A DNA stretch of 33,825 nt from a virus: positions 1 to 33,825 of IMG/VR virus record IMGVR_UViG_3300008448_000339; one strand, given 5' to 3'. The position numbers were made by a program, and so were the translations under genes. This document shows positions 5,949 through 32,901 of the stretch, piece after piece (the first letter of the stretch is position 1; each line of letters begins with the position of its first letter). Below the pieces are notes generated by a model. The model saw only the letters and a program-made list of their open reading frames with translations, was not told where the DNA came from and searched no databases.

Positions 5949-8339
5949 TTATGTTAATACGTATGTTATCGAAGTACCAGCATACCCTGATTGCAACAAT
6001 GTTGTTTTATATACTTTATATGATCCTACGGTAGTTTTAGTAAATGAACTAAACACACTAAAACCGGCAGCAGTTATGTTGGTTAAATCAGCCAATGCCG
6101 AGTTGTATACTATGTAATGATATTTATCACCTGTCCATGTTAAGGATACACTTTGACCTGTTGCGGTAGTTGTTCCCTTTGCAATAGTACCAATGTTACC
6201 TCCCAATGTAGTATCCCATAAACTTAAATTTTCTAATTCTGCAGCACTGAAGCTACTTGATGTTGATACCCCATAGCGCAAACTTCTTATTTTGGTATAA
6301 GTAGTTGTCGCAGAATTCACTGAAGTATTTAATGGAGGATTGTTATCCGATCCACCTGCTCCTGATGATGAATAATATGCAGTTGCTAATATCGTTATAC
6401 TTGTAGACCCTGTGGCACTACCCGTTACATATATTGGAGTGGCAGGTGTGCTGGTCATGTAATTAAACACCCAACTATTTGAAGCACCCGATGCTGATGT
6501 AAATGCAATACTACCGGTCGCCCCTTGTTCAATTTGATTGCTAGCCGCACCCAATTGTACGGTCGGTGTAGCAGATATAGTTGGTGCACCTGGATTTGAT
6601 TTACTCAATGTTCCGGACAATGTAGTGGACTGCATGTTAATAGTTCCATCCAATGGACTACTTGCAGTTACTTCTAATCGGTATGTATGACTACCTGATG
6701 TAGTTGTGTTATATGTTATTGTAGTACCAGATCCAATATTGGATAGCAATGTACTACCTTCATAAATAGATGCACTTATAAGCGTATAGGCGCCTACTGC
6801 AACAGTTCCGGTAGCAGTATAATTATCTGTTACCTGATTGAATCTGTCCGTTGCAAATGTGCTGTTAAACGATAATGCAGGGGCAGATGGTGCTGTCGGT
6901 GTTCCGAATATAAATTTCAGTCTACCATTAACAAATGTTACTGCAACATTGCTATCAAAGTCGGCTACTTCTATTTGCGATAATGATTCGATGCTGCTTG
7001 TTACATATTGTATTGCCGCAGTCGATGCATAAGAAGCAGTTCCTTGTAAACTACCAGTAAATGATGTTGCGGTTACATTGGTGTTAACTTGCAATCCAGA
7101 ATCTGGTGAAATTGAAGCACTAACACTACCTGAGCTAATTTGATTAAGATTTAATCCTACTATACCACCTGCTGGTATATTGGTTAATTGTGACCCATCT
7201 CCTGCAAAACTTCCACTAAATGATCCAGATGCTCCTGCAGTTACTCGTATGCTACCAGTAACAAAAACATCACCTATAATATCTAAATTGGTAGTTGGAG
7301 TTTCTTTATTAATACCAACCCAACCGCGTAAGTAGTTCTGGAATGAAGATGTATTATATATGGACCAATTACCTGCAGGAATACTTCCCGTACCTAACAA
7401 CACCAATGCGTTGCTATTAGAACCAGTCGCATTTCCAGTAACCGTAACACCAGCATAGTTACTCATACTAGCATTGGTTAACATGCTGCTATTTAAATAC
7501 AATCCATATGCGTTTTGTATTCTACTCCATGTACCAGCTTGAGTTACGCCAAAGAATTGATAACTCGTACCAATTGATGAAGAATTGGCAGTAGCCATTC
7601 CTGTTCTTACACCAAATTGACTTCCTATAGAACTACTATTATTATTGCTAACTACCCATAGCCCATTCATTGCCGCAGTGTACGAGGACTCTGATACTGT
7701 ATTGACTATGTATGTGTTTGTAAATCCTACACTGTTATATCCTTTACCTCGCTGCGTAACATTGGTCCAATTGGCAGTTATATCACCAGATTGAGTGTAT
7801 GAACTTGATAAATTAATATCTATTATACCTCGATTCAAAGTAATACGGTCGGCATCGCTACTGGTATATGATAATTCTAAATAGTTCGCAAATTGCGTAT
7901 AATCATCATCTGTTACTGAGCCGAATGGTTTTTTGTTGACCAATGTAGCTAAAACAGTGTTGGTAGAATATGGCCCTAAGAAATTTAATTGGGAGCTAGA
8001 TGCATAATACTGACTATCCCATACTGTGAAGCTAGAAGTTAATGGAGCAATACCAAAGTTGGATACCACTCCAGCACTACCTGTTCCTACAACAGCTAAT
8101 TTACCACCTGTTATGGTAGTGTTGGTATTGATTTGCAATCCGGTGTTCGGAGCTATAGAAGCTGTTACGCTGCCAGATGCTATCTGAGATAAATTTAAAC
8201 CAGTTATTCCGGATGCTGGTATGCCAGTTAAGCCAGCACCACTTCCTTGGAAACTTCCAGAAAATGATCCGGATATATTGTATGATCCAGATTTAAGTTG
8301 TAACGGTTTAAATTGTCTAGTTTGTGTCATTATGCCCAT
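5949..8339 (-). CDS. Tail fibre-like protein with two copies of the shared repeat module
   Basis: The 796-aa frame opens at 8339, but the fourth residue is a second Met at 8330 whose ATG overlaps the upstream stop as TAATG. A GGGAG lies about nine bases before that second ATG, so the true start is probably 8330. The repeat module GLT.IPASGITGLNLSQIASGS occurs at about residues 20-75 and again near 366-436. Residues 80-360 form a Ser/Asn-rich beta region. The C-terminal 300 residues look like tandem beta-sandwich domains (SNPGAPTISATPTVQLG and similar). No catalytic motif is seen. It lies directly after the gp15-like gene and before a fibre gene sharing the module, so a fibre or tail-tip adhesin role is inferred. 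Confidence 0.75.
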   Translation of the reverse strand: MGIMTQTRQFKPLQLKSGSYNISGSFSGSFQGSGAGLTGIPASGITGLNLSQIASGSVTASIAPNTGLQINTNTTITGGKLAVVGTGSAGVVSNFGIAPLTSSFTVWDSQYYASSSQLNFLGPYSTNTVLATLVNKKPFGSVTDDDYTQFANYLELSYTSSDADRITLNRGIIDINLSSSYTQSGDITANWTNVTQRGKGYNSVGFTNTYIVNTVSESSYTAAMNGLWVVSNNNSSSIGSQFGVRTGMATANSSSIGTSYQFFGVTQAGTWSRIQNAYGLYLNSSMLTNASMSNYAGVTVTGNATGSNSNALVLLGTGSIPAGNWSIYNTSSFQNYLRGWVGINKETPTTNLDIIGDVFVTGSIRVTAGASGSFSGSFAGDGSQLTNIPAGGIVGLNLNQISSGSVSASISPDSGLQVNTNVTATSFTGSLQGTASYASTAAIQYVTSSIESLSQIEVADFDSNVAVTFVNGRLKFIFGTPTAPSAPALSFNSTFATDRFNQVTDNYTATGTVAVGAYTLISASIYEGSTLLSNIGSGTTITYNTTTSGSHTYRLEVTASSPLDGTINMQSTTLSGTLSKSNPGAPTISATPTVQLGAASNQIEQGATGSIAFTSASGASNSWVFNYMTSTPATPIYVTGSATGSTSITILATAYYSSSGAGGSDNNPPLNTSVNSATTTYTKIRSLRYGVSTSSSFSAAELENLSLWDTTLGGNIGTIAKGTTTATGQSVSLTWTGDKYHYIVYNSALADLTNITAAGFSVFSSFTKTTVGSYKVYKTTLLQSGYAGTSITYVLT
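7080..8277 (-). repeat. Two diverged copies of the fibre module within one gene
   Basis: The copies lie at about 7080-7230 and 8120-8277. Each encodes G.GAGL or GDGSQL, then IPA.GI.GLNL.QI.SGSV.ASI and an (I/V)NTN tail. They match the module found three times in the downstream fibre gene, so the two genes probably arose by duplication or module exchange. Boundaries are by eye. Confidence 0.7.
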
Positions 8340-15468: not shown

Positions 15469-16086
15469 TTAAATTTGTGGTTCTGGTGCTACTTTTGGTT
15501 TTTGTCCTCTTACATTGAAACGGAAATGTTTTATTTCTGGTTTCTGACTGATATATCCTTGTATTTGTTGAGATTCTTTTGCTGGATCTTCTCCTAATCT
15601 AAATTGAAAATATCCTACTTTACCAGATGGAGATAATTTAGATTTAATAACATATATTTTTTTCTTTGCAGCAAATTGTTTTATTTCATCAAATACATTT
15701 TCTGCGGTAGCTGGATCAAATAATACAAATTCAACTCCACCTCTATAATCAGTAATTTTATTTAATAGTTGAGCTTCATCTACTATTTCTTCTTCTATAT
15801 TTTTAGAAATAGCTTTTCTTCTCTTTTTTAAATACTCATCTGAATTATCTACGGTACCATCATTATTAATATCAGAATCTTCTTTTCCTACCGGATCCAA
15901 TCCATCTTCAATATGTAATCGACCTTTTGTAGTTTTCAATACATTCTGTGCAGCTAATACTTTTTTTGGATCTTTAGTGTCATCTGCAGATAATACTACA
16001 TCTTTTGTAGGATCTGGTTTCTTTCCGAATGAAGTTTGTTCAGTTAAACCAAAAAAGTCACGATACATTTTTTTAAAAATATTCAT
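15469..16086 (-). CDS. Prohead-region protein with an EF-hand/dockerin-like loop
   Basis: A 205-aa protein with AAAGG seven bases before the ATG. Residues 72-83 (DINNDGTVDNSD) match a calcium-binding EF-hand or dockerin loop, with D72, N74, D76, T78, D80 and D83 at ligand positions 1, 3, 5, 7, 9 and 12, followed by EYLKKRRKAI. The C-terminal half (about 105-195) looks like a compact alpha/beta domain (GGVEFVLFDPATAENVFDEI and KVGYFQFRLG). It lies between the protease-linked gene and bS21. A structural or core role is inferred from position. The motif is clear by eye, but calcium binding is unproven and the C-terminal domain is not recognised. Confidence 0.7.
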   Translation of the reverse strand: MNIFKKMYRDFFGLTEQTSFGKKPDPTKDVVLSADDTKDPKKVLAAQNVLKTTKGRLHIEDGLDPVGKEDSDINNDGTVDNSDEYLKKRRKAISKNIEEEIVDEAQLLNKITDYRGGVEFVLFDPATAENVFDEIKQFAAKKKIYVIKSKLSPSGKVGYFQFRLGEDPAKESQQIQGYISQKPEIKHFRFNVRGQKPKVAPEPQI

Positions 16087-20578: not shown

Positions 20579-22156
20579 TTACAAAAGCCATGTTAAATTT
20601 TCAGATCCAAACCCATTATCCCATTTCCACGAATCATTTGGTTTAGATTTTCCTGTATAAATAACATTATTGCTAGTTTTTTGAAATGCGTTTAATGCTC
20701 GTTTATTTAAATCAATTCCTTGCTGTCTTAATTTGAGTGAAGTGTCTCGCAACCAAAGTGCGATACAAAAAGACATAACCAAATCATCATTATAACCTTG
20801 CTGTGATTGTGCTTTACCATTTAACCATATAAATACAAATAGTTCTTGTATTAATCGTTTACTACGTATAATAGGTGTTTTTTCACGCATATACATCTCC
20901 AATGCTGATATCATTAATGGTCTAGTTCTTGCAGTTGTAGATACGCCAGGAACCATTTGTGATTTGTCTTTCATATCATAGCCTTTTTTCAACTGCACAT
21001 TAGTATCAATATACCCATCATCTTTATATGTATAAACTAAATTAGCATATCCTCGATCGATAGCTGGTTGTATTGCTGCCCAACCAATGTTTGCGTTTTC
21101 AATTGCTAGTAACGCATTATTCCATTCTGTTGCAACTGATACTAACATGTTACCAAATTCATTAGGTGGTATTTTTCCTTTATATTCTGCTACTTGTCGT
21201 ATGTCTTGTACATCAATAACATGAAATGTAGACCAGTCTGCGCCATCGCCTCGAGCAACATCCGCTACAACCATATAATCTCGAGAATAATCTGGATACT
21301 CCCATACCCAATATGCATTGTCGTATCCTCGCTTTTCTATAGGTTCTGTACATTTTGATTCGTATTCTTGTAATAAATTTCCGTCAACTACCGTATGTCC
21401 AGATGATATAAAATCACAATCACATTCCTGCGCAGCGCCATGTTCTCCTAATAATCTAGTTTGTTCATTACGCCATTCTGAATCTCGTTCTGGGTGTACG
21501 TCCCATTTTAATCTAATCGTATGAAATCCATTTGTACCAGATTCAGCATCTGCCCATGTTTGATGAAACCAATTACCAATACCATTTGGAGTAGACAATA
21601 CAATAGCACCACCACCGGTTGATAATGTTGCTTGTGATGCGATCCAAATTTCTTCAATGTTTCTAATAAATGCAGCCTCATCAACAATTAATAATGATAA
21701 TGCTTCTGAACGAGCTCCGGTTGATGCACTAGATATTGCTTTTATTTGAGAACCATTTTTGAATTTCAATGATAACTTGTTATTCGATGTTATAGTAGTT
21801 TTTAACCAACTTGGTAAATGTTCATTCATTATTTGAACTTTACTTACTAAGTTTTTTGCTACATCTTGTGTGGTTGCAATAACTAACACATTGAAATCAT
21901 CATTAAATAACATAGACCATAATGCAAAACCAGCAGTTAAAGTGGATATACCTAACTGTCTAGATTTTAGTATTATATTATATCTATTATCTCGTAATTC
22001 AGTTAATGAATCTTCTTGAAATGGAAATAAATTAAATTTTATTTTTCCTCGTTTAGGATGTTGTATATAACAATACTGTTTCATGAAAAAAACAGGATCT
22101 GCAGCACATTTCATGTACTGTTGTTGAATTACTTGTTTTAAATTTGCTTGTGCCAT
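20579..22156 (-). CDS. 17: Terminase large subunit (gp17)
   Basis: A 525-aa packaging motor that hydrolyses ATP to drive DNA into the prohead and cuts the concatemer. The ATPase half has a Walker A-like KSRQLGIST (64-72), Walker B LLIVDEA (155-161) and coupling motif STPNG (188-192). The nuclease half has the three acidic sites D299 (VADVARGDGADWS), E353 (IENAN) and D457/D458 (YNDDLVMS). It is shorter than T4 gp17 (610 aa), lacking much of the N-terminal extension and C-terminal tail. Its ATG overlaps the upstream TGA (TGATG), so translation is probably coupled. I see no clear gp16 small subunit; the small genes upstream are candidates by position only. Confidence 0.95.
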   Translation of the reverse strand: MAQANLKQVIQQQYMKCAADPVFFMKQYCYIQHPKRGKIKFNLFPFQEDSLTELRDNRYNIILKSRQLGISTLTAGFALWSMLFNDDFNVLVIATTQDVAKNLVSKVQIMNEHLPSWLKTTITSNNKLSLKFKNGSQIKAISSASTGARSEALSLLIVDEAAFIRNIEEIWIASQATLSTGGGAIVLSTPNGIGNWFHQTWADAESGTNGFHTIRLKWDVHPERDSEWRNEQTRLLGEHGAAQECDCDFISSGHTVVDGNLLQEYESKCTEPIEKRGYDNAYWVWEYPDYSRDYMVVADVARGDGADWSTFHVIDVQDIRQVAEYKGKIPPNEFGNMLVSVATEWNNALLAIENANIGWAAIQPAIDRGYANLVYTYKDDGYIDTNVQLKKGYDMKDKSQMVPGVSTTARTRPLMISALEMYMREKTPIIRSKRLIQELFVFIWLNGKAQSQQGYNDDLVMSFCIALWLRDTSLKLRQQGIDLNKRALNAFQKTSNNVIYTGKSKPNDSWKWDNGFGSENLTWLL

Positions 22157-24428: not shown

Positions 24429-24437
24429 TATAAATAT
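24429..24437 (-). promoter_or_regulatory. AT-rich box ATATTTATA, candidate promoter element
   Basis: ATATTTATA on the coding strand, 22 nt before the 281-aa gene's start and overlapping the end of the preceding gene's stop codon. A separate Shine-Dalgarno-like AGGA lies between it and the ATG. Confidence 0.4.
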
Positions 24438-26476
24438 TATCGTTGATATTTTAATACTCCTAAAATTTGATTAACGGGGGCAAAAGCACCGGTTAATTTA
24501 TATGTATTGCCTTTGTATACGAATACAATGCCTTCTGATGGTACAATTGCTTCAAATCCGCCCAGCCGTTGTATACGAGCTAATTCGGTTTTTAATTTAT
24601 CTAATGTTTTAATATCATTACTAGTTTCCAATTCTCTAATTAATTGAGCTAATTCTGATTTTATGGTTTGTACTGATTTTGCAGGATTAACTGCTAAAAA
24701 ATTTTCCGCATTCTTTAATACCACTGCTCCTAATCTTAAAAATATAGATTCAAATGGTTCCATATTTTGTTTTTGAAACTTTTTAAAATCTTGTTTATCA
24801 AATTCAGTGACCCAATTTAAAAATTCTGGATTTGTAATTTGTTTTTTCAATGCAGTTATAGTAGTACCTTTATCATTAAATGCCCAACGATAAATTAATG
24901 TAGATATAACATCTTTTGGTATATCATAACCAAATTCATTTGCTTTTGTTTGTATTACTTCTTTCCACCATGCCTTATGATATTCAGTAACTAAATCAGT
25001 ATCTTTAAGGCTATATCTGTTACGTAATTGATCTACTTCATTAATAAATGAAGTTTGCTGATCTTCAAAATCAGATATTCTTCCTAATTTAATTTTTTGT
25101 GGAGGTATAATTTGAAATGTTTTTTGTAAGTGTGCATTTGCATCTTGTATTATATTTTGTACAGTAGCTCCACCTGTTGCATCGGTTTCTACAATGTTAC
25201 CTTGTTCATCATATTCAACTAAATTATGGAATTGTAGAACTGCAGTTTCATATGGAATAACATTTCTAGTTGCCGGATATATAATTTCCATATTTGCAAA
25301 TACTCGTCCATTTTTAAAAATTGCATTTAAACGGTCTTGTGGTATACGAGAAAATGCTTGAGCCAAATCTTCACTCGCATTTCCAAATGCTTCTGAAATT
25401 GGTCCTCGATTGTCAAATTTTGCTTGAAGTTCTTGAACAGTCATTGGATTAACAACTGTTGCTTTATTTCTAGCAAATCCAACTTTTCCATCTTTCCAAG
25501 TTACTTGTATATTTTGTCCATCTGTTTTTTCGGTAACAGCTTCTTCTATATCTAATCTGCCAGCCAATGCTCTAGATATCATTTCTTTCATGTCCCCAAA
25601 AGTCAATCCGTGTTGATCGTATGGATGAGCCATATGTCCAGCTGCACCGCCTTCTGTAATCAATGATTTTGAATTTACTGATTCTTTAATCATCGGAGAT
25701 TCGATTTTTGCTCCAAATACTGTTTTAGCAAATTTATCAAAATCATATTGAAAACCTTTACCAGTATTTGCATCTAAAAAATGTCTTAATTTTTTTATTT
25801 TAGCATCATGTTTTTCTTTATTCTTCTCGCCCATCGATCCTTCAAACATTGTTTTCCACCACTGTTCAGAAAATAATGATTCTTGTACTCCAGAAACTAT
25901 TTGCCATATATTTTTAACTATTTCGTCTGGTGTATTTGGATATCCAAATTTAAATGTTTCATAATCTCGATTTGCAATTGCAGCGCGAAGTGATGATGCT
26001 GATATAGGTTCTCCGTTTTTATATAATAGTGGATCAATATCAATATTCATTTCAATTGCATCTATACCAGTTGGAATTTTTCTACCTTTTTTGTCACCAA
26101 TCGTCTTATATTTATCTACATTTGGTGCAAAATCTTTTGCACGAACATAATCATCACCTTTAGTAGAAGCAGCCATTGCATAACGACCATTAGTATCTTC
26201 TGGTAATGAAAATAAATACTCGTATGCAGCCATTATTGGAGAATTGAATGCAGTTGGCTGTATTTCAATTTTTGGATTTTTATTTAACAGATTAAATATT
26301 TCCATACTTTTATCTCTAGTTATACCTTCTCGTTCTTTTTCTCCGATTAATAAAATAACTCGTTCAACTTCCGGATTTGCAGCATAACGTTCTGCTAATG
26401 CCATATGAGCACCAGTTAATGGTTTAAATCCACCAGGAAATAAAACTGTGATATTTCTTTTATTTATTTCTGCCAT
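24437..26476 (-). CDS. Fusion: HIGH-type nucleotidyltransferase + nucleic-acid-ligase-like domain
   Basis: A 679-aa two-domain enzyme. Residues 8-195 form an HIGH-type nucleotidyltransferase Rossmann domain: VLFPGGFKPLTGAH (11-24), with H24 as the key histidine, and ISASSLRAAI (158-167), matching the ISSxxxR motif. Such enzymes join a nucleotide to NMN, pantetheine phosphate, glycerol-3-phosphate or similar. After a linker (195-290), residues 290-679 have covalent-nucleotidyltransferase (ligase/capping) motifs: EKTDG with K317 as the expected nucleophile, RNK (336-338), FANMEIIYP with E397, EGIVFVY with E648 and YKLTG with K660. An insert of about 230 residues separates motifs III and IV. I recall the C-terminal part resembling a phage family annotated only as a domain of unknown function. 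Substrates are unknown; both activities are inferred from motifs. Confidence 0.75.
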   Translation of the reverse strand: MAEINKRNITVLFPGGFKPLTGAHMALAERYAANPEVERVILLIGEKEREGITRDKSMEIFNLLNKNPKIEIQPTAFNSPIMAAYEYLFSLPEDTNGRYAMAASTKGDDYVRAKDFAPNVDKYKTIGDKKGRKIPTGIDAIEMNIDIDPLLYKNGEPISASSLRAAIANRDYETFKFGYPNTPDEIVKNIWQIVSGVQESLFSEQWWKTMFEGSMGEKNKEKHDAKIKKLRHFLDANTGKGFQYDFDKFAKTVFGAKIESPMIKESVNSKSLITEGGAAGHMAHPYDQHGLTFGDMKEMISRALAGRLDIEEAVTEKTDGQNIQVTWKDGKVGFARNKATVVNPMTVQELQAKFDNRGPISEAFGNASEDLAQAFSRIPQDRLNAIFKNGRVFANMEIIYPATRNVIPYETAVLQFHNLVEYDEQGNIVETDATGGATVQNIIQDANAHLQKTFQIIPPQKIKLGRISDFEDQQTSFINEVDQLRNRYSLKDTDLVTEYHKAWWKEVIQTKANEFGYDIPKDVISTLIYRWAFNDKGTTITALKKQITNPEFLNWVTEFDKQDFKKFQKQNMEPFESIFLRLGAVVLKNAENFLAVNPAKSVQTIKSELAQLIRELETSNDIKTLDKLKTELARIQRLGGFEAIVPSEGIVFVYKGNTYKLTGAFAPVNQILGVLKYQR

Positions 26477-27106: not shown

Positions 27107-27117
27107 TATAAAAATAT
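27107..27117 (-). promoter_or_regulatory. Variant AT-rich box ATATTTTTATA
   Basis: The recurrent box with two extra T, 22 nt before the 190-aa gene's start codon. The position fits the exact copies but the sequence is looser. Confidence 0.25.
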
Positions 27118-29729
27118 TATGAAAATCCGCCGCCGCCCGGAGGTAAACTTTCCCAACCACCATCCGGTGGACTTTGTTGTATTGAACTGTATCCGTTAAA
27201 TGATCCAACATCGGTAGATATATATACAACCGCTCCTGGTGCTATTTCAATAAAACATTCGGCTGATTGACCTGCAGATACTTCTGGAAATATAATTGAT
27301 CCGATCGGCATAATACCAGTATATGTATCAGGTCCTACTAAATCGGTATATGTTGCTCGAGCTAATGAACATGATATTATAACATATTGAACTTTTTCTC
27401 CACCTAATGAACCATCTAGATACAATCTATAGTATGGAACAGTTCCGGGCCCAGCTGCAGTCGTAGTATTTAAATAACTTCCAGAATTTTCTTTTGATAT
27501 AGTTACCGATTTTCTTTGTATAATATTAGATGTATTTACTCCCGAAAATAATGCGTTACTAGCAGTTACAGATCCATTGGCAGATACACTGAAATTACTA
27601 GATGATATTTGTAACTTTCCATTACTACCGGATAAAAACGATCCAGAATTACCTAAAAAGAATGTATCTGAAAATATTCGTAAATTCCCGTTACTAGCAG
27701 AAATAAATGATGCAGTACTACCAATAAAAACTTTTTGTGTTTTTATTTCTAATTCAGATGGGTTGGTTCGATAACGGAAATAATTATTTGAATCTGCGTA
27801 TAATTCTAAACCTACACCATCATACGCGGTACTAGATGCCGTCATAGCAGAACCAGACCAAAGTAAAAATCCAGGATATCCAGCATTAAAACCATCATAT
27901 CCTAATGATCGTACGAATCCAGAATTTTTATATCCGCTAATTGCAATTCCACTTTCTAATGAATCTGCTACATACAACGATCCAGTTAACATGGAATAAT
28001 CTCCATCTACATAACGATTCCCACCTTGCCAACTTATATTATTTATGTAATTTATTTGTTTACTTTTTGCGCCATCTGCGTTGTAATATTCAACTTTAAA
28101 AGAATATTGTACGTTTGATTTATGCTGAGTAGGAACTAAACTTCGTATTCTGGTATATGCTGGTGTAAATCCGCGGTCATTATCAGTTGTAGTTCGTATA
28201 TCTGATATTTGCCATTCACCACCTTTAATTAAAAATATTAATACACCAGACCCATTTTCATCAGCATCAAAATAAAATGTCTGATCATCAAATCTTTGTG
28301 AATCATTATTAACATATAAATCACCAATTTTTTTACCAATCGATACCGGTAGTTCTTGATTGTAATAATCATTATAATCATATTTAAATGCACTACCAGA
28401 AATATAAACTAAAATATTTGGATTAGTATTTCCGGTTGCTGTAGTTTTTGAACCTACTGCGTCAATTGTTACTTTATACGAAGCTCCTTTAATAAACTTA
28501 CCAGCTGCTGAAGATGTGGTTTGTAAAATATGTACACGATTTCTTGCAGATAAATCTGCGGCACTGGATATTTTTATTGAATTTGAAAGTTTTGTTGTAT
28601 CATATGTTAAGGTTGGTGTAATTTGTTGTATTTTACCAGCATATGATGATGCTGTGTAATACGTATCAATTACGTTTTGCGATGTAATATCACCGATTGA
28701 TTTATATGGCTCTATAGATGCTGTGCCCGTAACAAATATATCTGTTTCTTCTAATGCAATATCGTTAATTAATTCCCAAGCTCCAATCGTACCAGTATTA
28801 TTTAAAAATACTTTTATACGAGAAACATCTCCAGATACTGGTTCTAAATTATCAATCTCTACCAACGCATATGATTCTGAATTTTGTGTAGTTACATATG
28901 TTGGTGTAGCTTCATACGATATTGTATAATCGGATAATCCAAAAGAATTATATGCATGCGGTAATATACTTTCAGTTGCAGATACTTTATATACGGTATC
29001 TAATAATATACTACTAGTAGATAAAACTTTTTTTATCGTAGTAGAATATGGTAATGTACTGAAAGAATAATATGGAATAGGTTGTGGATTATTTGGAGAA
29101 GCTACTGTTAATGTTCCTCCAACCATTTCATTATTAAATGATCCGCCAGATATAATTAATGCTGGCTGTCCGTTATTTGAAATGTATTGTACTTTTCCAG
29201 TATTATATGTTGGATACTGCGTAGTAGCATATACTCGATTTAATTGTACACCTATCTGTTCTTTAACAGTTACAGTTGGTAATGTTTCAAATATAATCTC
29301 AGAAACGTTTTCTAAAGTTGGATTAACCGGAATTCTTCTAGACCAACGTACGTTTGGTTTATCTTTCCATTCTGCTGGTACTGTTTGTCCGAATAAGGAG
29401 TTTGCGGTAGTTACTAATGTTACCAATGCATCGCCCGGAGACGTATCTTCGTATATGTAAATCGTTACAATTCTAGAATCATCTTCAGTTATAACCGATG
29501 TTACTTCGTTATATATAGGATTACCATTATAATCTAATACTTCAATATTTAAATAACTACCATTATTTAAATTATTTGGATGTCCTTGAAGTTTAAATAT
29601 ATTTTTACCGGCAGTTAAACGCAGTGGAAATTCAGTAATTCGGAATACTTCATCTGATGTTAAACTAGTGTCTTCGAAATAAACTGGAATGCTTCGTAAA
29701 TTTCTATAGACTGGTTGTTTTTGTTTCAT
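27117..29729 (-). CDS. Large virion structural protein, fibre-like C-terminus
   Basis: An 870-aa protein. The N-terminal 120 residues (RNLRSIPVYFEDTSLTSDEV, then FRITEFPLRLTAGKNIFKLQG) look like a folded beta domain, possibly the attachment part. The middle is several hundred residues of Thr/Ser/Asn/Tyr-rich beta structure. Near residues 670-730 is a short repeat: SGSNGKLQISSSNFSVSANG and similar units (FISASNGNLRIFSDTFFLGN), typical of fibre shafts. The C-terminus is a globular beta domain ending in PPGGGGFS. No enzyme motif is visible. With the neighbouring 190-aa protein it probably belongs to a fibre or baseplate wedge. It has no Shine-Dalgarno; an AT-rich box lies 23 nt upstream. Confidence 0.65.
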   Translation of the reverse strand: MKQKQPVYRNLRSIPVYFEDTSLTSDEVFRITEFPLRLTAGKNIFKLQGHPNNLNNGSYLNIEVLDYNGNPIYNEVTSVITEDDSRIVTIYIYEDTSPGDALVTLVTTANSLFGQTVPAEWKDKPNVRWSRRIPVNPTLENVSEIIFETLPTVTVKEQIGVQLNRVYATTQYPTYNTGKVQYISNNGQPALIISGGSFNNEMVGGTLTVASPNNPQPIPYYSFSTLPYSTTIKKVLSTSSILLDTVYKVSATESILPHAYNSFGLSDYTISYEATPTYVTTQNSESYALVEIDNLEPVSGDVSRIKVFLNNTGTIGAWELINDIALEETDIFVTGTASIEPYKSIGDITSQNVIDTYYTASSYAGKIQQITPTLTYDTTKLSNSIKISSAADLSARNRVHILQTTSSAAGKFIKGASYKVTIDAVGSKTTATGNTNPNILVYISGSAFKYDYNDYYNQELPVSIGKKIGDLYVNNDSQRFDDQTFYFDADENGSGVLIFLIKGGEWQISDIRTTTDNDRGFTPAYTRIRSLVPTQHKSNVQYSFKVEYYNADGAKSKQINYINNISWQGGNRYVDGDYSMLTGSLYVADSLESGIAISGYKNSGFVRSLGYDGFNAGYPGFLLWSGSAMTASSTAYDGVGLELYADSNNYFRYRTNPSELEIKTQKVFIGSTASFISASNGNLRIFSDTFFLGNSGSFLSGSNGKLQISSSNFSVSANGSVTASNALFSGVNTSNIIQRKSVTISKENSGSYLNTTTAAGPGTVPYYRLYLDGSLGGEKVQYVIISCSLARATYTDLVGPDTYTGIMPIGSIIFPEVSAGQSAECFIEIAPGAVVYISTDVGSFNGYSSIQQSPPDGGWESLPPGGGGFS

Positions 29730-29752: not shown

Positions 29753-29761
29753 TATAAATAT
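29753..29761 (-). promoter_or_regulatory. AT-rich box ATATTTATA, candidate promoter element
   Basis: ATATTTATA on the coding strand, 23 nt before the 870-aa gene's start codon, overlapping the last base of the preceding gene. It lies where transcription could switch from replication genes to virion genes. Confidence 0.4.
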
Positions 29762-32700
29762 CATACATGATGAATCTGGCTGTATTTATTAATTTTATTA
29801 ATCTCTAATAAATTATCAACCATATCTCGCATAGAATCAACATGAGATATAATAATTGAAAAATCAAACTTAGTACGGAAATATTCAAATAAATTTACAA
29901 CTGCAGAAATGTGTTCTTGATCTAAACTACCCCATCCTTCGTCAATTGCAATAAAGTTTGGACGAGGTAATGCAGAAACATTAATAAGTGCAATTCGAAT
30001 AGCTAATGAAGATAAGAATCTTTCCATACCGCTTGTTAATTCCAATGGCCAAAAATTATCTTCATCATAAATTATATATCCGTTGATATTTTTTCCATCT
30101 GTTTGCAATACCATATTAAAATCAACAACTTGATTTAAAACATTATTGATTTCCATTTCAATTTTTGGAAGAGCTTTAGATATTAATTCATAAGGAACTC
30201 CATCTCTGCTAACAGAATTTAAATAATATTCATATGCTTTATATTCAATTTCTAACTGTTTATATTTATTCAATTGTTCAATTGCATTTTGTTTATTAGT
30301 TTTAGCAACTTCAATTAAACCATGTTTAGATTTAATTGTTGTTGTTATATCTTTTAATTTTTTTGTAATTTCGTCAATTTTTGTTTTATTTTTAGAAATT
30401 GTAATATCTAATGTTGCATTGTGATTAATTGCAGATTCATTTGCACGAAATAATTCTTGTCGTTCCAATGTAGTTTCTAATTCAGATTCTCTAGTTTGTA
30501 ATTCATTTTCATGAACCTGTATTTGTAACTCACTTCTATCAATTTCTATTTTTTTAACATCTCGTTTAGTTTTTAAATCTACTAATAATTTATATCTCGT
30601 TTCTGAATTATTTAATGTTTTTATTTTTTCGTTTAATACATCAAGTTCAGAATTTAAATCTGTTAATATTCTATTATCTCCCGTAATCGTATTCTTAGCC
30701 TGTTCTGCATCTTGTACAAAAATGTTAGCTGTACAGTATTTGCAGTTCGGATCATATTCATGCTCGGTAAGATGATTAATCTTTTGTTGTTTTGCATCTA
30801 TAATTCCTTCTGTATATTTTATTTTATCATTTAAATCTGTTTTAGATTTATTATATATTTCCAATTGTTTAACATCTTGTTCTAATAACAATTCATTAAA
30901 CTTTTTTATTTCTTTTTTAATATTTTGTTGATCTTTTGTTAATGAATCTAAAACAGATTCTTCTGATTCTATAGATTTTTGTAAACGATCAATTAGTTTT
31001 ATTAATTTATTTTCAGTATCTATTAATTCATTGATAGATGGGCCTGTATACGTTGTTGGTTGTTTTGACTCTATTAAACGTACAATTTCATCTTGAAGTT
31101 CATTTCTTTGTTCTTGTAATTCATTTTCTTTATTTTCTAATTCTATAATTGATTGTTGATTGCTAATAATAGTAGAATTTGAATCATTAATTAAAGAAGA
31201 AAAATCTGTTTTCTTATATTCTTTAAGTTTGCCTGCAGTTTCTTTAATTTCATCTGCAGCTAACTGATATAATTGTTCGAATACGGTAATATCTAAAAAT
31301 TGTGATAGCAAATCTTTTCGTTCTCGTTGAGATTTTTCAATGAAATTATTATTATCTGCCTGTAATGAAAATGCAGTTAAAATAAAATCATCATATGTTC
31401 CTAAATAACGACGAATATTTTTATTTGTATCACTTCGCTCATCTCCGTTTAAATTTTCAGTATCTGTATAAAAATCAACATCTACTTTAACATGACCATC
31501 TCGTTTTCTTTCACCGGTACGTACAACAGTATACGTAGTACCGTTTAATTCAAAAACAAATTTACCTCGAAAGTTATTTTTTTTATTATTTAATACTTCG
31601 TGAGCTTTACCAGTTTTACTACATTTATCAAATATAGTATAAGTAATTGCATCTAATAATGAAGATTTTCCGCTTGTATTTGCCGCAAATAATCCTACTA
31701 CATCAGATAAATTTTGAAAATTAATAACATTACCATCTCCATATGAAAACATGTTATCAAATTCAAAAGAAATAGGATGCCATGTAACATAACGTACTGA
31801 ATCTAATACCGGTAGTTTTGAGTTTATGGTGCGATTAATATATCTAATCGCATCTATTTCCTCTGGAGTAGCCTGCGGATATTTTATATTAATATAATCA
31901 GTAATTAATGTATTTTGATATTCAGCATCACGAACATTACCAATTGAAATATTTGTATTTTTGTCTGAATTATTAATATCAGATTTTCTTTGTATTGATA
32001 TATCTTGAACATGATATTTACTTCGTATCATGGTTATGACTTTTTTCATGTCAGCTGCTGATGTACCATTAAAAATAATACGTACGCGAGGTTTATTTGG
32101 AACACGAGTTGGACTTTTTATTAACTGGGTACCTTGTAACTCAAAAGTAACATAACCATACTCATTTTCAATTTCTACAAATTCAGCACTTTTATTTTTT
32201 ATGTCCCAAACTAATAGTCCGTGCTCTAATGCTTCGCCATAATTTTGTTGTATGAGAGATCCGGGATATGCAATAGTTCGTTCTTCATTTAAAAATTGTG
32301 CTGGCTTATGTATATCTCCTAATAATGTAATATCGTGTCCATCAAAAATATCAGTAGTAACATGTTCATTTGATATAGTATACCCAATATCAGTTTTAGC
32401 TGAATTTACAGCGCCATGGTGTAATGCAATTTTATACTCGGCTTGAAAATCTTTTGCTGAAATATATTCTGATGGAGCAACATCAACAGCCATATGATTA
32501 AAAACAACACCGCCTAATTCAAATAATCCATTTTCTTTTACAAAAATAATATTTGGATTATTAATTACATCCAGTACTGGAGATACGGCATCAATACGAT
32601 TTAAATTATTTAAATTCATATCATGATTACCCAGTATAACTACTGTAGGTATTTTAAAGCCATTAAAGAAATAAACAAGCATTTGTACTAATTCTGGAGA

Positions 32701-32901
32701 CATATCTAGTTTTGCATGAACTATATCACCGGTAATTACTACAATATCATTTTTTGTACATGTGCTATCGATATATTCATATAATTTATTAAACACATCT
32801 CGATATTCAGTATGTCGTTTTAATGTACGAATATGAATATCTGAAACATGATAAATTTTATTAATCTTACTAATATTAGTTTGTATCTTTTTTATTTCCA
32901 T
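29761..32901 (-). CDS. Single-chain gp47-gp46 (SbcD-SbcC / Mre11-Rad50) recombination nuclease
   Basis: A 1046-aa fusion. Residues 15-235 are an Mre11/SbcD-type calcineurin-like nuclease: DIH (21-23), GDI (58-60), GNHD (91-94), HHG (161-163) and GDIH (195-198), the metal-binding set. Residues 375-1030 are Rad50/SbcC: an N-terminal ATPase half with Walker A-like AANTSGKSS (406-414), a long coiled coil (about 550-890) with a zinc hook CKYC (720-723) at its tip, then the ABC signature LTSGMERF (955-962), Walker B FIAIDEG (983-989) and switch H1020. T4 makes these as separate gp47 and gp46, which process DNA ends for recombination and degrade host DNA. The Walker A loop lacks the usual first Gly. 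It overlaps the primase gene by ten bases. Confidence 0.92.
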   Translation of the reverse strand: MEIKKIQTNISKINKIYHVSDIHIRTLKRHTEYRDVFNKLYEYIDSTCTKNDIVVITGDIVHAKLDMSPELVQMLVYFFNGFKIPTVVILGNHDMNLNNLNRIDAVSPVLDVINNPNIIFVKENGLFELGGVVFNHMAVDVAPSEYISAKDFQAEYKIALHHGAVNSAKTDIGYTISNEHVTTDIFDGHDITLLGDIHKPAQFLNEERTIAYPGSLIQQNYGEALEHGLLVWDIKNKSAEFVEIENEYGYVTFELQGTQLIKSPTRVPNKPRVRIIFNGTSAADMKKVITMIRSKYHVQDISIQRKSDINNSDKNTNISIGNVRDAEYQNTLITDYINIKYPQATPEEIDAIRYINRTINSKLPVLDSVRYVTWHPISFEFDNMFSYGDGNVINFQNLSDVVGLFAANTSGKSSLLDAITYTIFDKCSKTGKAHEVLNNKKNNFRGKFVFELNGTTYTVVRTGERKRDGHVKVDVDFYTDTENLNGDERSDTNKNIRRYLGTYDDFILTAFSLQADNNNFIEKSQRERKDLLSQFLDITVFEQLYQLAADEIKETAGKLKEYKKTDFSSLINDSNSTIISNQQSIIELENKENELQEQRNELQDEIVRLIESKQPTTYTGPSINELIDTENKLIKLIDRLQKSIESEESVLDSLTKDQQNIKKEIKKFNELLLEQDVKQLEIYNKSKTDLNDKIKYTEGIIDAKQQKINHLTEHEYDPNCKYCTANIFVQDAEQAKNTITGDNRILTDLNSELDVLNEKIKTLNNSETRYKLLVDLKTKRDVKKIEIDRSELQIQVHENELQTRESELETTLERQELFRANESAINHNATLDITISKNKTKIDEITKKLKDITTTIKSKHGLIEVAKTNKQNAIEQLNKYKQLEIEYKAYEYYLNSVSRDGVPYELISKALPKIEMEINNVLNQVVDFNMVLQTDGKNINGYIIYDEDNFWPLELTSGMERFLSSLAIRIALINVSALPRPNFIAIDEGWGSLDQEHISAVVNLFEYFRTKFDFSIIISHVDSMRDMVDNLLEINKINKYSQIHHV

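Follow-up and report, generated by a model that had tools for sequence, protein, structure and literature searches.

A HIGH-type nucleotidyltransferase coupled to a putative RNA-ligase-like domain in a widespread family of aquatic phage proteins

The minus-strand gene at 24437–26476 of a 33,825-nucleotide viral sequence (IMG/VR record IMGVR_UViG_3300008448_000339; the whole stretch is referred to here as the window) encodes a bifunctional protein of 679 residues, recognised from its open reading frame and translation and with hundreds of homologues, in which a HIGH-type nucleotidyltransferase (NTase) domain is followed by an RNA-ligase-like domain. Both domains are present, their catalytic residues are conserved, their coupling persists among relatives, and the gene is linked to that for the large terminase subunit. 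The best explanation we can offer, and one with about an even chance of being correct, is that this is a phage RNA end-processing enzyme of the late gene cluster, an ATP-dependent RNA ligase coupled to a HIGH adenylyltransferase. The coordinates assigned in the first-pass annotation are right and the coding strand is the minus strand, the plus strand being full of stops across the same interval. The protein has no confident match in Pfam, NCBIfam or PHROGs; the best PHROG hints are to phrog_562 (T4 RNA ligase 1, E 0.004, residues 389–438) and phrog_395 (cytidyltransferase, E 0.014), and in the hundreds of aquatic phages with the pair, whether fused or on adjacent genes, the ligase half is annotated only as 'unknown function'.

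The RNA-ligase-like covalent nucleotidyltransferase domain spans residues 281–679 (24440–25636, minus strand), as judged from an AlphaFold2 model, Foldseek and profile alignment. Motif I is KTDG (residues 317–320; 25517–25528, minus), in which K317 is the predicted AMP acceptor, and ARNK (25463–25474, minus) contains R336, the counterpart of the motif Ia arginine. Motifs III and IIIa lie in FANMEIIYPATRNVIPYETAVLQFHN (25223–25300, minus), which contains E397 and aligns with the corresponding T4 Rnl1 segment, and motifs IV and V, with E648 and K660, lie in EGIVFVYKGNTYKLTG (24488–24535, minus), a predicted beta hairpin with strands at 387–392 and 395–399 in the numbering of the model. FANMEIIYP (residues 393–401), EGIVFVY (648–654) and YKLTG (659–663) all occur where the first-pass annotation had placed them, as do the other motifs that it named. 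We aligned 170 ligase domains from freshwater, marine and huge phages, with identities down to about 34–40%, and found K317, D319, G320, R336, E397, E648, G649, K660, T662 and G663 identical in every one, as are N405 and Y409. The four motif residues named earlier (K317, E397, E648 and K660) are thus conserved in homologues (170/170), and since a 28-sequence alignment has just 55 invariant positions out of 417, the probability of all four being invariant by luck is about 3 in 10,000. Judged by this conservation, the ligase-half motifs are no chance resemblance. The domain is led in by EGGAAGHMAHP (residues 275–285; 25622–25654, minus), which is predicted to be disordered (pLDDT < 50) and is conserved in the alignment at E275 (160/170), G276, G277 and H284 (169/170 each) and H281 (170/170); it is possibly a linear motif or a prohead-protease site.

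The AlphaFold2 model of residues 263–679, for which the input was restricted to the window and IMG/VR rows, has a mean pLDDT of 85.6, and places motif I at the end of one strand and the start of the next, motif III on a strand, and motifs IV and V in a hairpin near the C-terminus. RNA ligases make up nearly all of the top 22 or so matches when this half is compared with the PDB using Foldseek. The best is 2vug, an archaeal Rnl3-type ligase (E 9e-4), and T4 Rnl1 (7e-3), T4 Rnl2 (1.5e-2) and a Naegleria ligase are among the others. These structural matches score only modestly (E 1e-3 to 1e-1), with low global TM and large rmsd, probably because of a helical insert at about residues 433–633 (24578–25180, minus), between motifs IIIa and IV, which is seen in the secondary structure of the model and is unmatched in the Rnl1 and Rnl2 profile alignments. 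Against a viral library, the matches run from close homologues labelled 'cytidyltransferase-like' through uncharacterised proteins and a cyanophage S-PM2 protein to annotated RNA ligases.

We also compared a core profile, consisting of the ligase domain with insert residues 433–633 removed, with families centred on T4 Rnl1 and Rnl2. It scores 27.6 with Rnl1 (best of 60 column shuffles, 23.7; reversed control, 17.4) and 31.5 with Rnl2 (26.4 and 16.8 respectively), and no more than 20.6 with any of seven unrelated phage families. K317 falls over K99 of Rnl1 and K35 of Rnl2, E397 over E159 of Rnl1, ANMEIIYPATRNVIPY over a matching 16-residue stretch of Rnl1, and FANMEIIYPATRNVIPYETAVLQFHNL over a matching 27-residue stretch of the T4 ligase. 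The full-length profile with the insert kept gives no alignment with T4 Rnl1 or Rnl2, a sequence search of the PDB with the ligase profile gives no match, and the Pfam RNA_ligase match is below the cut-off and confined to the motif I stretch. Because the core scores exceed those of the shuffles and K317 is correctly placed, we take the C-terminal half to be an RNA-ligase-like domain whose helical part lies between motifs IIIa and IV, its place in Rnl1 being after motif V; the case from sequence and model is good but not overwhelming, with few controls. The earlier expectation of a ligase-type fold is borne out by these scores and by the RNA ligases that dominate the Foldseek list.

The likeness to T4 Rnl1 (gp63) extends to the KxDG of motif I, the motif III segment ANxExxxPxxRxVxxY and the nucleotidyltransferase core, but the arrangement differs: Rnl1 has a continuous core with a helical C-terminal domain after motif V, whereas the window protein has its helical segment of about 200 residues inserted within the core, and has a HIGH NTase fusion that Rnl1 lacks. 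The acceptor cannot be read from the motifs by themselves, and DNA ligases are present lower in the Foldseek list, as would be expected if the domain were another kind of covalent nucleotidyltransferase that seals DNA nicks, caps 5' ends or nucleotidylates proteins or small molecules. We regard this as unlikely, however, given that the ranking favours RNA ligases, that motif III fits Rnl1, that only 16 residues follow YKLTG, leaving no OB-fold domain beyond motif V, and that the partner domains found in relatives act on RNA.

The N-terminal domain (residues 9–195; 25892–26452, minus) is an adenylyl/cytidylyltransferase-like member of the HIGH superfamily, as indicated by an AlphaFold2 model (pLDDT 77), Foldseek and profiles. 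GGFKPLTGAH (residues 15–24; 26405–26434, minus) is a (T/H)xGH-type nucleotide-binding motif in which G15, F17, P19 and H24 are nearly invariant, and ISASSLR (residues 158–164; 25985–26005, minus), within ISASSLRAAI (158–167), is the counterpart of the (I/V)S(G/A/S)(T/S)xxR motif of NMN adenylyltransferase (NMNAT) and phosphopantetheine adenylyltransferase (PPAT), with S159 and R164 nearly invariant; the (H/T)xGH and SxxxxR motifs and the fold of the superfamily are thus all found here. The identification of this half as a HIGH-type nucleotidyltransferase in the first-pass annotation agrees with the structure comparison, in which NaMN/NMN adenylyltransferases are the best PDB matches (E 5e-5), with NadM and PPAT close behind. 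A profile of the whole-protein alignment, mostly from the window clade, prefers PPAT (E 8e-6), and the best match of a marine-clade NTase profile is an archaeal NMN adenylyltransferase (E 1e-5), with which the marine GRFQPF and SGTxxR motifs align. The RTxGIST motif characterises CTP-using members of the superfamily. It is absent from the NTases of both the window and marine clades, and on this sequence criterion 'adenylyl-' is a likelier description than 'cytidylyl-'. Our findings suggest that many phage proteins recorded as 'cytidyltransferase' are misnamed. The domain shares a Rossmann-type fold and the (H/T)xGH and S(G/A)(T/S)xxR motifs with archaeal NMNAT, NadM, NadD and PPAT, but differs in its partner, which here is a ligase-like domain, and is a Nudix domain in NadM and a riboside kinase in NadR.

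The relation to NMN/NaMN adenylyltransferases, and the coupling of the two halves across very different phages, are consistent with the suggestion in the first-pass annotation that the NTase may convert NMN and ATP to NAD, which would then serve the ligase domain as AMP donor. Several observations argue against this. No Ia-type (LigA type) NMN-binding module is recognised upstream of motif I, where the window protein has no N-terminal Pfam match, and a stand-alone homologue (L003/L166) has only about 60 residues before its catalytic lysine, leaving no room for one; the gene for NMN-making NadV is found in just 1 of 12 carrier records searched. RNA ligases use ATP, and the nearest folds are ATP-dependent RNA ligases; moreover, NAD built from ATP for the sake of its AMP offers no gain over ATP itself. 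Because of the missing module, the short stand-alone N-terminus and the rarity of NadV, we rejected a self-supplied NAD-dependent ligase as the main account and consider it very unlikely; the other half of the same proposal, an RNA-end modifier, has fared better.

The pairing of the two domains is real, conserved and widespread. Three GenBank phage records share the C-terminal half by tblastn, those of Microcystis phage Mel-JY01 (where the homologue is annotated 'cytidylyltransferase like protein') and the huge phages LR756500 and LR756508, and the N-terminal half alone is found in Lak phages. In IMG/VR the window protein retrieved 281 relatives and the Mel-JY01 protein 304, which we call freshwater-type and mostly marine respectively, these being labels for the two query-derived sets and not sample origins. 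Among 106 ligase ORFs uncut at the 5' end, 102 contain both domains; the exceptions are LR756500, seen twice and with the NTase on the next gene, L097, with the NTase on the previous gene, and one broken fragment. One locus (L169) has the reversed order, ligase then NTase. The fusion in 102 of 106, the occurrence of both orders, the adjacent genes of cyanophages and the split genes of LR756500 together lead us to treat the two domains as coupled. A search of open-access papers on the fusion, DUF6267 and 'cytidyltransferase' returned no description of such a pair, so the earlier impression that it was undescribed stands as far as the literature goes, but the pair is not rare; it is widespread and has gone unnamed.

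Longer marine versions (1,200–2,400 residues) add a P-loop kinase, and two add a CCA-adding-type polymerase. In marine proteins of 1,050–1,640 residues the kinase typically comes first, with a Walker motif ahead of the NTase in 19 of 27 such ORFs (marine and genome-contig set). The best solved relative of the kinase profile is L-seryl-tRNA(Sec) kinase (E 7.5e-4), with a weaker match to bacterial Pnkp. Two proteins from separate assemblies, L167 (at least 2,428 residues) and L170 (about 1,907 residues), have an inserted CCA-adding/polyA-polymerase head together with its RNA-binding domain, and L167 also carries an HD domain; a conserved 'mid' domain of the marine proteins has no relative in the PDB. 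It is the tRNA-kinase-like P-loop kinase and the CCA-adding/polyA-polymerase head that point to RNA as the common theme. The combination of kinase and ligase in the long marine relatives resembles the bacterial Pnkp/Rnl/Hen1 RNA-repair system (PMC4411300), but we recognised no Hen1 methyltransferase or phosphatase here, and a HIGH NTase is present instead. Neither kinase nor polymerase is present in the window protein, which also lacks a head-targeting leader, and the whole 33,825-nucleotide stretch is without tRNA genes.

Two modules are observed in the marine multi-domain proteins, GTIKGLKFATVKDAxASVxKIKNSGRSHAHKIQAAVAMEQRA, whose position varies, and CSNPKGFSQKAHCAGKKKR; they were noted at the N-termini of L105, L111 and L115 and within residues 336–640 of L101. 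In L158 (1450–5058) and L160 a Zn_protease domain (PF05618) lies between NTase and ligase, and the kinase is encoded by a gene of its own upstream.

A probable relative of the family is present in cyanophages. S-PM2d138 (591 residues) matches PF19782 (DUF6267; E 2e-111) and then CTP_transf_like, an order reversed relative to that of the window protein. The S-PM2 query matches 521 phage records, and those matching both parts usually have two neighbouring genes, a 'hypothetical protein' and a 'cytidyltransferase'. In the viral library the S-PM2 protein matches the fold of the C-terminal half with probability 0.99 (E 7e-4). DUF6267 (the cyanophage T4-GC 71 family) shares KxDG, EG(F/Y)V and VK with the window family, with equal spacing of E to K (+12), its lead-in HLEHxED resembles HMxHPxD, and it too partners a HIGH NTase; it differs in having QGD rather than NxE at motif III, and in its order of ligase then NTase or its division into two genes. 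PF19782 itself has no Pfam match to the window protein and is not among the families listed for 21 members scanned. With the ligase-domain profile the motifs are collinear but the score is no better than with shuffled columns, and we therefore call DUF6267 a probable relative on grounds of fold and motifs only.

In 148 of the 167 loci examined (IMG/VR and genome-contig sets) a large terminase gene lies close by in the same orientation, in keeping with the earlier placement of the gene in a late cluster; in the window it is a conserved neighbour downstream (20579–22156, minus; phrog_2, E 1e-45). The stand-alone ligase of LR756500 begins MKFLKSYEEFLNE, similar to the MKTYQEFIAE with which the T4 internal head proteins IpII and IpIII begin, several marine proteins begin MNKLTxWLVExxLxE, and the ligase domain is preceded by the conserved, predicted-disordered xEGGxxGHMxHP. 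These sequences hint at packaging and processing in the head. The position in a late cluster and the leader-like N-termini of relatives, together with the relation of the NTase to NMNAT and of the ligase to RNA ligases, could also mean that the fusion serves only to co-deliver two separate jobs, salvage of NAD or another cofactor to counter defences that deplete NAD and repair of RNA to counter defences that cleave it; phages are known to encode both NAD salvage and RNA repair (PMC9503650, PMC7824862). This is unlikely, as co-delivery explains poorly why these specific partners are paired in both orders and as adjacent cyanophage genes.

T4 Rnl1 (gp63) also catalyses tail-fibre attachment. A role as a virion assembly factor, with enzyme activity secondary, would fit this precedent, the conserved site beside terminase and portal genes, and the neighbouring 870-residue ORF at 27117–29729, which looks structural and fibre-type in composition (an impression only). 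The chance of this seems slight to us, since the catalytic residues are all invariant and the partner domains are RNA or nucleotide enzymes.

If the protein is the RNA end-processing enzyme that we favour, the C-terminal half would bind ATP and move AMP to K317, while E397, E648 and K660 would keep the nucleotide and the metal in place and the helical insert would clamp onto the substrate; AMP would then pass from K317 to a 5'-phosphate RNA end, which would be sealed to a 3'-OH. The N-terminal half would use ATP to adenylylate a phosphorylated compound, most likely a small molecule, as in the conversion of NMN to NAD. Acting together, the halves would mend RNA (probably tRNA) that nucleases of the host defence have cleaved, make good the loss of a cofactor to defence, or do both, and the role of the protein is perhaps one of counter-defence. 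A large, unnamed phage protein family, whose domain occurs in hundreds of freshwater and marine contigs, thereby gains a testable function, and the apparently related PF19782 gene lies beside or inside a HIGH NTase gene in cyanophages, which are abundant marine viruses. An RNA ligase here would imply an RNA-repair system of aquatic phages missed by annotation, including single-chain versions with kinase and CCA-adding-type polymerase. There is a rather small chance that the adenylyltransferase builds an NAD- or CoA-like cofactor that the attached ligase uses covalently on RNA ends, for example in cofactor capping or cofactor-coupled sealing, and if so most T4-like cyanophages would share this chemistry, in proteins recorded as 'hypothetical protein' and 'cytidyltransferase'.

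Some further observations concern neighbouring and related genes. Adjoining the stand-alone ligase of L003 is a gene (6265–8223) whose product has a ligase-like N-terminal half in which the lysine is lost (ENLDG), with relatives in other huge phages, and a HIGH NTase at its C-terminal end. The Lak phage record L249 encodes a 385-residue NadR-like protein (1480–2637; NMN adenylyltransferase and kinase, identified by eye), and NadV is elsewhere in the same record. Within the window, 29761–32901 (minus) encodes a 1046-residue protein that combines a phosphoesterase (SbcD-like) stretch with an SbcC-like region on one chain. A 205-residue protein (15469–16086, minus) contains a short module also present in phrog_764 ('cytidyltransferase'), phrog_4359 and phrog_3326 and in the S-PM2, L013 and L167 records, which is perhaps a virion-packaging tag.
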